DNA of 46,223 bases from Prasinococcaceae sp. CCMP 1430 (lineage: Eukaryota > Prasinodermophyta > Palmophyllophyceae > Prasinococcales > Prasinococcaceae). The notes under the pieces are model-generated. The model did not search any database. It was given only the letters and a program-made list of their open reading frames with translations, and was not told the DNA's origin. Both the position numbers and the translations under genes were made by a program. The stretch is taken from the NCBI GenBank assembly GCA_013416795.1, contig RQSC01000011.1, forward strand, positions 202,928-249,150, in the 5' to 3' direction. Position 1 is the stretch's first letter. Each line of letters begins with the position of its first letter. Positions 1-10,875 of the stretch are shown here, piece after piece.

Positions 1-312
1 CGCTCGCCGAGTGGCGGGCGCGGCGGCGCGCGGCAGCCGCCAGCGCCAGCCGCCGCGCCAAAATGCGCTCCCCCATTTCGCGCGCGCGCTCTTCCGCAGG
101 AACGTATCGAAACGAACCCGCGCGCCCTCAGAAATTCAGAATCATCACCACGACCGCGAGTACGAACGGCCTCCCCACGGGAGAGCGATACCGCCGCATG
201 TTGGGGTCGGGGGTTGTTGTTGGGGTACCGTGTGTATGCGTAGGGTTGTGAATCGCCATCAAACCGCATCCACACAGCGCGGCATTATCCGCGCACGGCC
301 CGCTACGCGCGT

Positions 313-1981
313 GTGGCTGCGCAGGTGTTGGGCAGAGGTGTGTGTGGGGGGGGGGACGCCACAGTGACGCGCGGGGGCGGGTTGACCGGCGGACGCGCGA
401 GGGGAAGGGACGCGCGGAGCGCGGTCGCCCCGGGGGCGGAAGGGCGGACGGGGGACGCTCCATCGGCGCGCCGACCTCCCCCTCCCCCCGCGACGGAGTG
501 GCTGCGCGCGACGTGCCCCGGCGCCGCCGACGGCGCCGAGGCGCTGCACGCGCGCAAGTTCGCGCACGGCCAGAGCAACCCCACCTTCCTGCTGTCCCTG
601 CGCGGCGCGCGAGGCCGCGAGCTGCGCAAGCTCGTGCTGCGCAAGCAGCCGCAGGGCAAGCTGCTGCCGCGGGCGCACGCGGTCGACCGCGAGCACCGCG
701 CGCAGGCCGCGCTGAGCCGCGGCTCGGACGTGCCCGTGGCGCGCCAGCTGGCGTACTGCGCCGACAGGGAGGTCGCAGGCGCGCCCTTTTACGTCATGGA
801 GCACGTGGACGGCACCGTCTTCCTGGATAGGAGCCTGCCGTCGCTCGCGCCGGAGCAGCGCGGCGCCGTGTACGCGTCGCTTGCGCGCTGCCTGGCGTCC
901 ATCCACTCTGCGGACGTCGAGGCGATGGGCATGGTCGACTACGGCCGCGCGGACGCGTACTGCGCGCGCACGCTCGCGACGTGGAAGCGCCAGTACCTGC
1001 GCGACTGGGGCAGCGACCCCATGCCGGAGATGGTGCGGCTCGCGGCGTGGCTGGAGCGCAACGCGCCGCCGGGCGCGAGCGCGCGGATGCCGAAGCCGGC
1101 GCTCATCCACGGCGATTACCGCCTGGACAACGTCATCTTTGGCCTTGGCGCCCGCGGCTCGGCGCCGGAGGCGCTCGCGGTGCTCGACTGGGAGCTGTCG
1201 ACGCTCGGCGACCCGATGGCGGACTTGGCGTACCTGTGCATGACGCTGTACCACGCGCCGCCCGGCGAGGTCCCACAGCCCGGCCGCGGGCGACTGGCGC
1301 CGCCGGAGGGCGCGCCCGCTGAGGCCGAGCTGGTGGCCCAGTACTGCAGGCTTCGTGGCGTGGCCGCGCCCGACGAGCGCGCGTGGACGTACTACCTCGC
1401 GCTCGCGTGCTACCGCATGGCGGCCATCTGCGCGGGCGTGCACGCGCGCTCGAAGCGCGGCAACGCGAGCGCAGCCAACGCCGAGATGGTGGGCCTGGCG
1501 GGCAAGGCGTACGCGGCGTACGCCCTGGGACTCATCGACAGCGTGCCGCCGCGCAAGTGGTACCAGAGCGAGCGCTCCGCCGCGCTGCTCGCACGCGTGA
1601 AGGCGTTCATGGACGAGCACGTGTACCCCGCGGAGAAGGAGTTCATGGCGGAGGACGCGGCGCGCGTGGGCGAGGCCCGCTGGCGGCCGTTCCCGCTCAT
1701 GGAGGAGCTGAAGGCGAAGGCGCGCGCCGCGGGGCTGTGGAACCTCTTCATGCCGAGCGACACGCGAGACCTCATCGCGCCCGGCATCCGCGAGGCTGTG
1801 GACTGCGGGCCCGGCCTCACAAACCTCGAGTACGCGCCGCTGTCGGAGGCCATGGGCGCGTGCCCGTTCGCCCCCGAGGTCTTCAACTGCAGCGCCCCCG
1901 ACACGGGCAACATGGAGACCCTGGCGCGGTACGGCACGCACGAACAGCAGGAGCGCTGGCTCAGGCCGCTGCTCGAGGGCA

Positions 1982-2012
<31 letters not shown>

Positions 2013-2841
2013 CGCGGTGGCATCCAGCGACGCGACCAACATGCAGGCGGTCTGCGCGCACGACGCCGCCACGGACCAGCTCGTGCTCAGCGGCCGCAAG
2101 TGGTGGGCGAGCGGCGCGCTCGACCCCAGGTGCAAGCTGGCCATCTTCATGGGGCGCGAGGCCGACGCGGAGGGAGACGCGGCCAGGGGCAAGGCCGCGC
2201 GCGAGCCGCACCGTCGCCACTCGATGGTGCTGGTGCCGCTGCCGCACCCGCGCGTCAAGATGCTGCGGCCGATGACCGTGTTCGGCTACGACGACGCGCC
2301 GCACGGGCACGCCGAGGTGGTTTTTGACGAGGTGCGCGTCCCGGTGGACAGCGTGCTGCTCGGGCGCGGCCGCGGCTTCGAGATCGCGCAGGGGCGGTTG
2401 GGGCCCGGGCGGCTACACCACTGCATGCGGGTGGTCGGCCTTGGCGAGCGCTCGCTGGCGATGCTCATCGAGCGCGGCGCGCAGCGCAAGGCCTTCGGGC
2501 GAAGCCTGCTTGCGCTCTCGGCGGACAAGATCGCCGACGCGCGCGTGCAACTCGACATGGCGCGCATGGTGGTGCTGTCGGCGGCGGCGGAGCTCGACCA
2601 GCACGGCAATAAGCGCGCCAGGGGCCCGCTCGCCATCGCCAAGGTCGCCGCCCCGCGCGCCGCGATCAGCGCGATCGACGCGGCCATCCAGGTGTTTGGC
2701 GGGTGCGGCGTCAGCCAGGACGCCCACCTCGCGTACTTTTACGCGGGTGCGCGCACGCTGCGCCTCGCCGACGGTCCCGACGAGGTGCACCTGCAGACCA
2801 TCGCCAAGGTCGAGGCCGCGAAGCACAAGGCGCGCCTGTAA
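313..2841 (+). CDS. ACAD10/11-like protein: APH-type kinase domain fused to acyl-CoA dehydrogenase
   Basis: A single long exon of about 840 codons. The N-terminal half is an aminoglycoside-phosphotransferase-like kinase domain: GQSNPTFLL near residue 95, FYVMEHVDG near 160, and the catalytic-loop type motif HGDYRLDN at about 266 followed by VLDWE. The C-terminal half is an acyl-CoA dehydrogenase, with MTEPAVASSDATN near residue 565 and ADGPDEVHL close to the end. This order matches eukaryotic ACAD10/ACAD11 and plant IBR3, which handle unusual (hydroxy or branched) acyl-CoAs in beta-oxidation. The protein ends in ARL, an accepted variant of the PTS1 peroxisomal signal. The 5' end is unresolved. 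The open frame begins at a GTG, an in-frame stop lies at 241-243, and the first in-frame ATG is only inside the kinase domain (796). A short first exon starting at ATG 63, spliced 224 to 325 in phase 0, would fix this but is speculative. It is convergent with the next gene, 53 nt away. Confidence 0.85.
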
Positions 2842-2894
2842 AACCGACAATTTTTCCAGCCGAGCGGAGCGTACGATACACGCTGCTCCTCAGC

Positions 2895-4013
2895 TCACTC
2901 GAAGTACTCGTTGGTGAAGATCGCCTCCGCGCGCACCTGGTCCCTGGGGATCCGCTCACCCACGTCGCCCGTTCGCAGCCCGTCCAGTGTCGCTGACTGG
3001 CCCTTGACCGGCTGCCGCGAGTTCGCGTACGTCGTGAGCAAGCCCTCTTTGTCCAGCCAGTCCAGGTACGCATTCCAGCGCTCGGGGGTCTGGCGCCCCC
3101 ATTTGCCGTCGCCATCTAGGTACGCCGGCCCGAGCTTGCGCTGTGAGCGCACGCACATCTCGAGATCGAGACTGTCGTCGCCGCAGAGCTCGCGCGCGCC
3201 TTCCACGAGCTCGCGCGCTGCCTCCTCCGGATGCGCGGCCGCCCATTCATAGCCTTCTGCGGTGGCCGCAAGGAAGGCGCGCACGTCGTCCGCGCGCGCG
3301 TCAAGCGTCGCGGGCGCCGCGACGAGGCACGGCGAGCATGCGCGCGGTATTCCGAAGTCTTCGAGCACGAAGTAATTCAGCTTCTGATCGTCTCCGCTCA
3401 TCTCGGCCTGCACGCCCTCCCAGCACGTAAATACCCACGTGGCGTCGGCCTCGCCCTTGAGAACGGTGTCCCACAGGCCAAGCATGGGCTCGACACACTC
3501 CTCGTAGTCGCCCGTGCCGCCGTCGGCCTGGATGAGGCGCTGGATGATGCGCCCCTCGAAGCGTGCAGCATAGCTGGCGTACCGTTTCCCGTCGAGCTCG
3601 CGCGGCCGGGCGATGCCCTTACGCGCGGCGACCGCCGACGTGTTGCGCTGGCAGAGAGCAGCAACGGCGGTGAGCGTGCGCTCGCGCCGGCCGCTGGCGC
3701 CGCACGCAGGCAAGTTCCAGCCTACCACCCCCTCCGGCGAGTTCAGCGCAAAGGTCGCCTCTCCGGCGGACGCCAGGTCGCACGGCGTGACGTACTTACC
3801 GCCATCGCCGCCGCTCGTGTAGCTGCCCTTATAGCGCGCGTCTGCCGCGGAGATTATCTCCACGGCGAGCCCCCTCTTCGCGTACATCCCACGCCTCGCG
3901 GCGACGAAGAACCCGGTATGGTTCGTGTTGGGCGTCCAGTCGAGCGCGACGACCACCGGCGCGCCGCCCCCACCACCACCGCCACAGCCTCCGCCACCAC
4001 CCGCCGGGGCCAT
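2895..4013 (-). CDS. NMT1/THI5-like (SsuA/THI5 periplasmic-binding fold) protein
   Basis: An intronless gene of 372 aa. The ATG at 4013 sits in a strong GCCGCCATGG context. After a poly-glycine leader, residues 20-45 carry the family signature (VALDWTPNTNHTGFFVA, then GMYAKRGL). Further family-like segments are FALNSPEGVVGW, a GLWDTVLKGEADATWVF segment and FGIPRACSPCLV. The fold is that of bacterial pyrimidine/sulfonate-binding proteins and of fungal THI5, which makes the thiamine pyrimidine HMP-P. I do not see the CCCFC cysteine motif that fungal THI5 needs, so synthesis of HMP is not supported; binding or salvage of a thiamine precursor is equally possible. No signal peptide or membrane segment is visible. 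It is transcribed divergently from the folate-receptor-like gene that carries a TPP riboswitch, which argues for a thiamine-related job. No riboswitch was found in its own upstream region. Confidence 0.85.
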   Translation of the reverse strand: MAPAGGGGGCGGGGGGGAPVVVALDWTPNTNHTGFFVAARRGMYAKRGLAVEIISAADARYKGSYTSGGDGGKYVTPCDLASAGEATFALNSPEGVVGWNLPACGASGRRERTLTAVAALCQRNTSAVAARKGIARPRELDGKRYASYAARFEGRIIQRLIQADGGTGDYEECVEPMLGLWDTVLKGEADATWVFTCWEGVQAEMSGDDQKLNYFVLEDFGIPRACSPCLVAAPATLDARADDVRAFLAATAEGYEWAAAHPEEAARELVEGARELCGDDSLDLEMCVRSQRKLGPAYLDGDGKWGRQTPERWNAYLDWLDKEGLLTTYANSRQPVKGQSATLDGLRTGDVGERIPRDQVRAEAIFTNEYFE

Positions 4014-4729
4014 GGCGGCGCCCCACGCGCTCGCTCAGAGCCTACGCTGTGGCAGGAGCCCCCCTGCCGAGCCAGCCGGCGAGCACATCTGCGATGGCCG
4101 TGGCTGCGGCGACACGTCAACGGCGCCCGTGCGGGCAGCACCACGTGGGTTTGTGCGGGCACCGCCACGTGCGCGTTGGGTGGCTCGCGCGCCACCGTTA
4201 CGCGTAATGCGGCCTGCGTGATACGCGCGGCGATGAGTGCGTGACCTCCGAGAGACGACAGATCGATGAAAGTGTGGAACTTCCGCACGAAGCTTCCGCG
4301 CGGGCAGCGTACGCGCGCGCGCGGGAGGAAAGGGGTGGGGAGTGCAGGGGCGCCACACTGCGCACGTGCCGCGCGCTACCTGCGACAGGGTCTACGTGTT
4401 GAGGTGCGTGGGGAGGCGCGCGGGGGGGGGATCCGGAGAGCGCTCGTTCGGCCCTTACGGCGCCACCAAATGTGCTCCGCGCATTTTTTGGGCGCGCGCA
4501 CGTTGGCAGACAGGCCCTCGCCTGCCACAAAACCCTTCGCGTTCCGCGGGCCTCGTCCCATGGGCGCGCGCGCGCGCGCGGCGATGGTTCCCGCGCGCGG
4601 CATGCCGGGTGTGCTGCTGACGCCGAGCGCTGGCCATTTCTCCAATGTGTGCCCGCCGCTGTCAGGCTTGCGTCCGTGCTTGCCCCGAGTTCTCTCATTT
4701 TAGCGGCCTTTTCTTCTCACGCACGGAGG
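4014..4729. other. Divergent intergenic region between NMT1-like and folate-receptor-like genes
   Basis: 716 nt between two divergently transcribed starts, so it must hold both promoters. It contains runs of CG dinucleotides (about 4310-4322 and 4566-4579) and a G-run near 4426. Open frames on both strands here have no recognisable domain and look like by-products of high GC. I searched both strands for the TPP riboswitch core (CTGAGA followed by ACC..GGTAATG) and found none in this stretch; a lone GTAATGCGG near 4205 lacks the partner motif. Confidence 0.6.
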
Positions 4730-6426
4730 ATGGTGCCGCTCGTGATGATGTCGGCGCTTGTCGCGGCCGGCGCCGCCGGGGCGCACGCGGCGGACACGTG
4801 CGGCGTGTGCCACATCCAGTACCTGCACAAGGATGCCTCAACGCCCGAGCCGGCTCTGATGGACACGGCGTGCAGCGCCTTCGCCTCGGGCTCGTGCTGC
4901 ACGCCCGAGACGGCCATCCTCGCGTCATCGAACAGTGGCGCAGAGCTCTACGGGTGAGCACAGTGCCTGCCGCGCGCGCGCGCGTGCGTGCGCGATGATG
5001 CGACGCCATGACTCGCAAACCGAGCAGCTGGCTGACGAGACGCATGCGCGTTGTCGCCGCCACATATCTTGTTGCGCGCGTGCGATGTCCCCCTCCTTCT
5101 TCCGCTCATTCTTGCGCGCCGCCATCCGAACGCCATCAGACCGGAGTACCGCTGGGACCGCTGCGGCCCGCTCTCGCCCGAGTGCGAGCGCTTCTTCGTG
5201 GCGGAGGCATGCTGGTATGAGTGTGCCGTCGAGGCCGGCAAGTACAGGAAGCAGTACGTGGGGGGCGTTGTGTGTGTTTCGTGTGTCATGTGTGTGTGTA
5301 TGTTGTGTCGTCGTCTGCGCGCGCGTGTTGGTGTGTGTGACTTTCCTCCACCTTGCCATCGCCACTCTCGCACCTTGAGCTTCGGTGCGACTGATGACAG
5401 CGATCGTCCGAGCGACTCTGCCGGCCGTTGCGCCGGCGCGAGCGTTGCTGACGCAGTCACTCGCCATCGAGTAGGGGTGCCCGGGGCATGGACACGCTCA
5501 GCGGTCCCTCTGCCTCGGTGCTGAGATCATACCCTCAATGACCGGACCAGGGTAATGCCTGCGTCGGAAACTCAGCGCCCTCACGCGCGCGGACTCCACA
5601 GTGGCAATCCGCTGGCCAGTGCTGCAGTACGCACGGCTTCTCCAAAGCCGGAGGCTGTGGAAAGCACGCCGTCGCGCTCGTGGACTGCAGCGCGGAGGCT
5701 CGAGGTGCTGATTGATTGATGTGCGCGCCTGCGCTGCCCCTCCCTTACGCCTTCGCTGTCGCCGCCGCCGCGCCTGCCGCTGCGCGCCACGCCACGCGCG
5801 CAGTGCCGACTGTGCTGCCAGCGCCAACGGCACCGGCAACTCATGGCAGATCTACCACGCCCCGATGAAGGGCTCCTACTGCGACGAATTCTACGAGGCC
5901 TGCAAGGCCGACTTCTTCTGCTCGAGCACCGGCACCGGCTCGTTTTTCGACACTGTCGCAGACGAGTGCGGCACGCTGGGCGACATCCAGTCGAACTGCA
6001 AGTCTTTCGAAGAGCTGTACGGCAGCGGCGAGGCGCTCTGCGAGAAGATGTGGGACGACAGCTTCATCTACGTGCCCACGACCAACTTCTCCGACCCTGA
6101 CCACAACGCATCGGACGCGTTCGGTGCGCCCTGCGCGCGTGCTCTGCGGCCTGATGCGCCGCATTGTGCCGCCGCTTGTTGAAGCGAAGGCGTAGTGCTG
6201 ACGCGACGTCGCCCTTGCGACTCCCGCAGTGTGGGACTGGCCTGCGAACGAAACCAACCCAAATGCCGCCGTGCTCGATCATGTCGAGTGGCCCGACTCC
6301 TGCAATGAGTCGGAGCACGACGCGTGGGTGGAGTTCGACCTGAAGGCGCTCGAGGAGTGCCCGAACGTCATCTCGGACGGCACCACTGGCAATGTGACCA
6401 ACGCGACGGGCGGATACAACCCTTGA
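4730..6426 (+). CDS. FOLR: Secreted folate-receptor-like protein with TPP riboswitch in intron 2
   Basis: Four exons: 4730-4953, 5140-5253, 5804-6123 and 6230-6426 (284 aa). All junctions keep phase; donors are GTGAGC, GTACGT and GTGCGC, acceptors all CAG. The third exon could instead start at 5822, also in phase. The protein has a signal peptide (about residues 1-21, cleaved before ADTCG) and a cysteine-rich folate/riboflavin-binding-protein domain: CCTPETA, then LYGPEYRWDRCG, CERFFVAEACWYEC, CDEFYEACKADFFC and ALCEKMWDDSF. These match the cysteine framework of animal folate receptors (Pfam Folate_rec). The last exon is N-glycosylation-rich (NETN, NESE, NVTNATG) and has no hydrophobic tail, so the protein is probably secreted rather than GPI-anchored. 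The ligand is unknown. The riboswitch and the NMT1-like neighbour point to thiamine or a pyrimidine/thiazole precursor instead of folate. Confidence 0.88.
5469..5573 (+). promoter_or_regulatory. TPP riboswitch (THI element) inside intron 2 of the folate-receptor-like gene
   Basis: The conserved blocks of the thiamine-pyrophosphate aptamer occur in order on the + strand. They are GGGGTGCCC at 5474-5482, the invariant CTGAGA at 5521-5526, ACCC at 5531-5534, GACCGGACC around 5540-5548, GGGTAATGCCTGCG at 5550-5563 and GGAAA at 5566-5570. Possible pairings are P1 GAGT (5469-5472) with ACTC (5570-5573) and P2 GGGT (5475-5478) with ACCC (5531-5534). The variable P3 arm spans about 40 nt, as is common in eukaryotic versions. 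It lies about 215 nt after the 5' splice site and 230 nt before the 3' splice site, in an intron (about 550 nt) more than twice as long as any other here. Known algal and fungal TPP riboswitches act by changing splicing; that mode is inferred here. Confidence 0.92.
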
Positions 6427-9606: not shown

Positions 9607-9834
9607 ACGGGTGCGCGGCTGCTTCAAGAGCAAGCGCCAAGAGCAAAGCCTCGCTCCTGCCATGCGGTGCTGTGCCTGCGTCCGCGAGCTGTGATCCATC
9701 CATCGACACTCGCGCTGCGCGCCGCCGCGTCTGGCGTGCTCCCTTGCTTGCGAGACGGGCGGCGCTCCACGTGCGAGGCGTGGTGGTGCCGGCGGCTGCG
9801 GCCGAGCCCGAGCCCGCGTGTGTCGCATGTCGAT

Positions 9835-9854
9835 ACACACACACACACACGCAC

Positions 9855-9907
<53 letters not shown>

Positions 9908-9935
9908 CGAGCACACACACACACACACGCACACA
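9835..9935. repeat. Compound (AC)n-(GT)n-(AC)n microsatellite
   Basis: An AC tract (about 9835-9853) is followed by about 52 nt of GT and then another AC tract (about 9910-9934). The arms are mutually complementary, so hairpins or a cruciform are possible. The purine-pyrimidine alternation also favours Z-DNA. Confidence 0.9.
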
Positions 9936-10875
9936 AACATTCGCTTCGCTTCACTGCCTGCCGGTGGCGGTGGGGGTGGTGCGCTTGCATGCGCGCGCTC
10001 ATGCGAGCGCGAAAGCGCCGGCGCGCCGCGTGCGCGCGAGCGCGCTCATCGAAACGCACTGACCGCCTGCATTGACACCCACACCGCAGGTCACCGGATC
10101 ACCCCACTCCGACTGGCCTTTTCGCCGCGGCCAGTGACGGGAGGATTGATTGAACGAAACGGGGCTCACCGCAGGGCGGATGACGGGGATTCGGATTCGG
10201 GTCTGTGCTTCGGCTCACTGCCCGAGGATGACCGGGATGGCGTATTGGGTTTTTCTGGGGGAGCTCGCGCGCGGCGCGCGGCGCTGCCGCCTGCACCGCG
10301 GCAGCCGAGGGGGACGGGAGGAGGGGAGGGGCTTCTTCCCCTCGGCCTGATTCTCACGCGCGCGCGCACGCGCGCAAGTGCTGGGTCGGCGTTCGTTCCC
10401 CTCGCCCTCTACGCCCACCCACCGGGGGGCCACAGCGCGCGCGCGCGCGCGCCGGGCGCGCCGGCGCACGCGCCGGGCCGGCCGCCGCTCTGCGCGCGCG
10501 CGCGCCAGCTAGCTGGGAGGGAGGAGGGGGCGCGGCGCGAGGGCGCGCTCGCCCCAGGTTGCTGGCTGGCGCCCTCGTCCGCCGAGGGTGAATGTGCACC
10601 AACTCGTCGACGGACGCCCCCGTGCTGCCCGCTCAAACCGGTGGCACGAAGACGATATCGGGCGGCGCCGCGAGGGCGGTGTTGAAGTGGCTGCACGCTG
10701 CCGCGGCGGGCGCGGACGCGGCGAGTGCCGGCGACGCCGGCGCGGCGTCACGTCGCCCGCGGCGCGCACGGCGCCGCCCGGCACGCGGCCGATGTCCTCG
10801 CGATGGTGGCAGAACGCGCGCCGACATCGCAGGACGGGCAGTGCCCCCGGCGCAACCGAGGGGGGCGCTCCAGGC

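Follow-up and report, generated by a model that had tools for sequence, protein, structure and literature searches.

A predicted intronic TPP riboswitch aptamer in the coding region of a folate-receptor-like gene from a prasinodermophyte alga

The folate-receptor-like gene and its intronic aptamer

The stretch analysed here (hereafter, the window) comprises 46,223 nucleotides (nt) of Prasinococcaceae sp. CCMP 1430 (assembly GCA_013416795.1, contig RQSC01000011.1, positions 202,928 to 249,150, forward strand). A four-exon folate-receptor-like gene lies on its plus strand, head to head with an NMT1/THI5-like gene, and the second intron of the former houses an element that matches the thiamine pyrophosphate (TPP) riboswitch family. 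The first-pass annotation, made from the sequence alone, had placed a TPP riboswitch at 5469..5573 in an intron of such a gene, and this span turned out to run exactly from P1 to P1. At the level of sequence, the reading as an aptamer of the TPP riboswitch class, set in a coding-region intron of a PF03024-family gene, is supported. The features of the gene and of the aptamer are as follows.

4730..4953, plus strand: exon 1 of the folate-receptor-like gene, with a hydrophobic, signal-peptide-like N-terminus as judged by eye (gene model)
5140..5253, plus strand: exon 2 (gene model; database protein P0001 is colinear across the join)
5254..5803, plus strand: intron 2, 550 nt, GTACGT...GCGCAG, housing the aptamer (gene model)
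5469..5573, plus strand: predicted TPP riboswitch aptamer, P1 to P1 (RF00059 match 5463-5586, 25/25 pairs)
5469..5472, plus strand: P1 5' strand GAGU, partner ACUC at 5570-5573 (pairing check)
5473..5478, plus strand: P2 5' strand AGGG(G)U, partners at 5532-5535 and 5529; contains the AG at 5473-5474, a candidate alternative 3' splice site
5481..5518, plus strand: P3, an extended stem with an outer 8 base pairs at 5481-5488/5511-5518 (folding, pairing check)
5521..5526, plus strand: CUGAGA pyrimidine-binding motif (sequence; role as given in PMC9544697)
5542..5567, plus strand: P4 (5542-5545/5564-5567), P5 (5548-5551/5558-5561) and loop GUAAUG (alignment, pairing check)
5804..6123, plus strand: exon 3 (gene model)
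6230..6426, plus strand: exon 4, ending in a TGA stop (gene model)

Scanning the whole window against 4227 Rfam families with cmscan gave a match to RF00059, the TPP riboswitch, on the plus strand at 5463-5586, which covered the full model (1-105 of 105) with 42.9 bits and E = 3.4e-5; the E-value was 4.8e-7 when the 651-base stretch 5200-5850 was scanned alone. A single RF00059 match (E = 4.3e-6) was found in the whole assembly (24.5 Mb in 145 contigs), with 49 of 415 first-look candidates scored, and the 27.9 kb scanned at the other PF03024 loci (L011 on contig C68, L012 on contig C77) and at a second NMT1 copy (L010 on contig C49) held no further TPP aptamers. The remaining 19 matches in the window that passed the E-value threshold were all of the microRNA or snoRNA type, 15 of them on the TG/CA repeats at 9809-10022; these long repeats give strong sub-threshold microRNA-family matches on both strands, which is a simple-repeat artefact.

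The conserved blocks of the aptamer are all present in order within 5469-5573, as the annotation had read them together with the P1 and P2 pairings, and every pair read off the family alignment is a standard one (25 of 25: four in P1, five in P2, eight in the outer P3, and four each in P4 and P5). Both ligand-binding motifs, CUGAGA at 5521-5526 and GCG at 5561-5563, are intact. A very close sequence also has the 3' end of the element: the 176-residue database protein P0003 starts with the residues encoded from the ATG in the P5 loop and then follows, with few differences, the translation of the rest of intron 2 and on into exon 3.

Several results weigh against this identification and the reading built on it. 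A scan of the window at gathering scores returned no Rfam match: RF00059 reached 42.9 of the curated 54.3 bits, a score that marks the curators' cut-off for automatic listing and not a structural feature, so that the search proposed by the annotation yielded a match that is significant by E-value and yet sub-threshold by score. The fit to the model is also imperfect: P3 carries a long insertion (33 positions hidden in the alignment), P3a is missing and the outer part of P1 is weak. The minimum-energy fold of 5430-5610 is not the aptamer (-74.6 kcal/mol unconstrained, -65.2 kcal/mol when the aptamer is imposed, a gap of 9.4), and the 121-nt strand folded alone gave z = -2.14 with a minimum that differs from the aptamer. 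These computed energies, which include neither ligand nor tertiary contacts, are evidence against an aptamer forming unaided.

A chance resemblance in a GC-rich intron (the GC content of the window is 67.4%) would account for the low score and the deviating lone fold, but the E-value over 4227 families and the uniqueness of the match in 24.5 Mb led to its rejection, and with a host gene family that is already tied to TPP aptamers it is extremely improbable. The sub-threshold score would also suit a conserved aptamer that no longer switches, for which the THIC aptamer of Phaeodactylum, unresponsive despite its conserved motifs (PMC9544697), provides a precedent that likewise counts against a working riboswitch here. 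Against such a loss of function stand the 25 of 25 pairs, the two intact ligand-binding motifs, the intronic position and the fact that Micromonas ATS1 does respond (PMC4260697), which make it rather improbable.

The four modelled exons join in frame across GT-AG introns of 186, 550 and 106 nt to give a product of 284 residues. The annotation had called intron 2 the longest in the window, which holds within this gene, to which the comparison was confined. PF03024 was the sole Pfam family in the protein (107 bits versus a gathering score of 29.8), in agreement with the folate-receptor-like label it had been given, and its solved relatives in the PDB were folate receptor beta (E 4.5e-14), riboflavin-binding protein (E 1.3e-13), folate receptor alpha and Juno. 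In the alignment the window protein has a Glu where folate receptor beta has an Asp, which I take to be the pterin-anchoring, folate-binding residue. Judging from its sequence, the protein is probably secreted.

Among 105 database relatives, P0001 is colinear with residues 64-274 at 62.5% identity, spanning all three exon joins, and P0002 aligns over residues 112-279 at 73%, spanning the intron 3 join; upstream of exon 3, P0002 differs from the window protein and reads in frame through the exon 3 acceptor. The C-terminal block of the family (C-x-x-F...LCE-x-MW...NPN) sits N-terminally in most algal and lancelet relatives: 92 of the 105 hits are permuted in this way, two (P0001 and P0002) are colinear with the window protein and 11 could not be assigned. 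No relatives of exon 3 were found in IMG/VR or in GTDB genomes. A folate-receptor fragment on contig C77 (L012, ~4312-4446) reads uninterrupted over the position of intron 2 and then passes, in the same frame, into an ambiguous codon and other sequence; it may be a remnant or an assembly join.

Candidate acceptor in P2 and the proposed splice control

The reading favoured here, to which I assign a probability of roughly 60%, is that intron 2 of this ATS1/FOLR-like gene holds a riboswitch for TPP, which would feed back negatively on thiamine acquisition by way of the AG acceptor in P2. This P2-acceptor model is, by analogy, the most likely mechanism; TPP binding, the acceptor used, the direction in which the gene is controlled and the role in uptake are inferred in it. 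At low TPP, intron 2 would be removed, joining 5253 to 5804, and the 284-residue protein, which would take up thiamine or its pieces, would be produced. At high TPP, the ligand would occupy the aptamer, and the AG in P2 (5473-5474) would serve as acceptor with CTGAC as its branch point, so that the aptamer segment would be kept in the mRNA and little protein would be made: joining exon 2 to 5475 was computed to limit the frame to 134 residues, with the stop at 5539. The AG belongs to an AGGG at 5473-5476, and AGGG in P2 is the alternative acceptor described for green algae and plants (PMC9544697). The candidate branch point is the following feature.

5448..5452, plus strand: branch-point-like CTGAC, its A lying 23 nt 5' of the AG in P2 (motif scan)

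A CTRAC motif 18-40 nt upstream accompanies 34 of the 2403 AGs on the plus strand of the window and, among the 21 AGs in 5280-5803, only those at 5471 and 5474; CTGAC also occurs 28 nt before the acceptor of intron 3. In the computed folds, the probability of the branch A (5451) being unpaired rose from 0.04 in the free state to 0.95 with the aptamer enforced, because the free fold pairs 5448-5456 with 5559-5567, part of the P4/P5 3' strand, in a helix of nine pairs.

The same analysis also supplied arguments on the other side. AGGG is near the general RF00059 consensus too, and in the aptamer-enforced fold the P2 AG is itself paired. A CTRAC 18-40 nt upstream accompanies the modelled acceptor of intron 3 but not those of introns 1 and 2, so this spacing is no rule of the gene. 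The complementarity between 5448-5456 and 5559-5567 does not exceed chance, since 222 of 2000 shuffled sequences and 177 of 1823 tiles equalled it. Scored by energy, the helix was matched by 108 of 1000 shuffles of the target, 120 of 1000 shuffles of the query and 101 of 1232 tiles; with the whole upstream intron as the target, 448 of 1000 shuffles matched it. The P4/P5-to-branch-point helix was consequently dropped as proof of an expression platform, and the free-state helix is held as a guess, since complementarity of this kind is within chance in such GC-rich sequence.

A TPP riboswitch could instead act through retention of intron 2, or through another acceptor or donor. Full retention would bring an in-frame stop at 5522-5524, inside CUGAGA, and further YAG sites occur close to the element (5550, 5575, 5601 and more). 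However, the restriction of the CTRAC spacing to the AGs at 5471 and 5474 speaks against these routes, as does the green-lineage precedent for the P2 site (PMC9544697), and they appear unlikely, though they are the strongest competitors of the P2 acceptor.

The neighbouring gene and thiamine genes of the assembly

The gene that lies head to head with the folate-receptor-like gene, their start codons separated by 716 bases, is listed below.

2895..4013, minus strand: NMT1/THI5-like (ThiY-like) gene, a 372-residue open frame (PF09084)

Its protein scored 145.6 bits against PF09084 (gathering score 20.5). The closest solved relatives were the solute-binding protein 4nmy (E 2.5e-30), presumably solved with thiamin, and the formyl-aminopyrimidine-binding protein 3ix1; at E 0.01 the solved relatives comprised only solute-binding proteins and no THI5 enzyme chains. 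No relatives of the protein were found in IMG/VR. A second NMT1-like copy on contig C49 (L009/L010) shares 91.7% identity over 1125 aligned positions, and the similarity is confined to the coding region (window 2891-4014) and does not extend to the flanks, which makes it, on sequence comparison, a recent, coding-region-sized duplication. Neither a folate-receptor-like match nor an aptamer was found in the 9.9 kb covered at this copy, and the pairing with a folate-receptor-like gene is therefore not fixed to every NMT1 copy.

Searching the assembly for thiamine genes gave no match to THIC and none to HMP-P kinase (PF08543), while thiamine pyrophosphokinase (TPK) is present. These absences are weak evidence, because parts of the genome may be missing from the assembly and plastid genes were not treated apart. 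The single match to SSF is a sodium/solute symporter, at most a candidate SSSP. Two other candidates were set aside: the frame that matched ThiG is PdxS-like, and the top Thi4 match proved to be a lycopene cyclase. Six more Thi4 matches all fall below the cut-off. Of two TMP-TENI matches, the one above the cut-off lies in an open reading frame with a dynamin-type GTPase (contig C42, L006) and was for this fusion not counted as a biosynthesis gene; the arrangement is presumably that of plant FZL proteins, in which a TMP-synthase-like part is joined to a dynamin-family part. Less easily reconciled with a loss of biosynthesis, and hence with the favoured reading, is a ThiE-like stretch of 42 residues within a 306-residue open frame on contig C75 (L021, 3152-4069), which is below the Pfam and NCBIfam cut-offs. 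Of the 15 open stretches listed near it on the same strand, 10 were covered and held no other TMP-TENI match; it may be what is left of a TMP synthase, or one part of a split one. A loss that spares only the last of the thiamine enzymes has been reported for Prasinoderma coloniale (PMC7455551), and the C75 stretch, if real, would not fit such a loss.

To judge by these gene contents, the alga apparently relies on an external supply of vitamin B1. The sole TPP aptamer found sits on a folate-receptor-like gene, back to back with a gene related to that of a pyrimidine-binding protein, in an assembly that shows few traces of thiamine biosynthesis, and this points to acquisition rather than synthesis; the folate-receptor-like gene and its ThiY-like neighbour are hereby named as two candidate genes for thiamine acquisition. 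A more elaborate version of the P2-acceptor reading, which I consider speculative and quite unlikely as a whole, would join the two into a eukaryotic thiamine-capture module: the secreted folate-receptor-fold protein, with its pocket Asp replaced by Glu, would bind thiamine or its pieces outside the cell, and the riboswitch would shut the module off by freeing the branch point at 5448-5452 from its helix with 5559-5567 so that the P2 acceptor is used. On this version, TPP-aptamer control of folate-receptor-like genes would be older than the divergence of Prasinodermophyta and the remaining green plants.

Other genes were seen in passing. On the plus strand of the window, 313-2841 encodes a phosphotransferase (APH) fused to an acyl-CoA dehydrogenase in one 842-residue frame, an order that I take to be ACAD10/11-like, and the best named relatives of an oligopeptidase gene nearby are green algae (among the best 120 of 1811). 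Elsewhere in the assembly, L019 (2158-4737, minus strand) carries a kynureninase fused to a 3-hydroxyanthranilate dioxygenase in one 859-residue frame, the single match to the latter enzyme in the assembly; a fused kynureninase-HAAO gene has been reported in Prasinoderma coloniale (PMC7455551), and the host is probably that species or one close to it.

Comparison with known systems

Control of folate-receptor-like genes by vitamin B1 is already known from ATS1 (McRose et al., 2014) and FOLR (Llavero-Pasquina et al., 2022). The tie between the folate-receptor-like protein and B1 that the annotation had drawn is thus real for the family, but its interest had been overstated, since the tie was already published. 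What appears to be new is the setting, with a lone aptamer in a coding-region intron of a prasinodermophyte, a head-to-head NMT1/ThiY-like gene, and TPK but no match to THIC or HMP-P kinase. A TPP riboswitch in Prasinodermophyta would extend this class of riboswitch to the third phylum of green plants. None of the papers searched joined Prasinodermophyta with a riboswitch, and the main text of the Prasinoderma coloniale genome paper uses the word 'riboswitch' 0 times (PMC7455551).

ATS1 (Algal Thiamine Sensitive 1), reported from Micromonas and other algae, is a PF03024-like gene with a TPP riboswitch (McRose et al., 2014; PMC4260697), and the window gene shares both the family and the riboswitch class; the likeness is one of family and description. 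In Micromonas RCC299, ATS1 was 80-fold up without thiamine at the last time point and >100-fold in precursor treatments, and Micromonas species carrying ATS1 were reported to be without THIC, THI4, THIM and TH1 (PMC4260697). Unlike the riboswitches of RCC299, which are reported in 3' untranslated regions, the window aptamer is in a coding-region intron; mid-gene riboswitches have been reported among prasinophytes (PMC4260697).

The FOLR genes of two diatoms, Fistulifera solaris and Halamphora, carry TPP aptamers, and thiamine transport was suggested for them (Llavero-Pasquina et al., 2022; PMC9544697). Protein family and aptamer class are the same as in the window gene. The Fistulifera relatives P0083 and P0090, which may or may not be products of the aptamer-bearing FOLR genes, are permuted, with the C-terminal block at the N-terminus, as opposed to the vertebrate order of the window protein. 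In the 2014 and 2022 papers, the function of folate-receptor-like genes with TPP aptamers was still described as unknown (PMC4260697, PMC9544697).

Chlamydomonas and Volvox likewise have a riboswitch in a coding-region intron. There the gene is THIC, which encodes a biosynthetic enzyme, whereas the product of the window gene is a presumed uptake protein. The coding-intron position is documented for both algae (PMC10226581), and the P2 AG is placed as in green-algal aptamers (PMC9544697); for THI4, an upstream open reading frame was reported to be retained with TPP (PMC12371167). Finally, SSUA/THI5-like (NMT1-domain) genes with TPP riboswitches are reported from Micromonas and Aureococcus (PMC4260697), and these belong to the same Pfam family as the neighbouring gene at 2895-4013. 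Unlike them, this neighbour showed no TPP aptamer in the Rfam scan and instead lies head to head with the gene that carries the predicted riboswitch.
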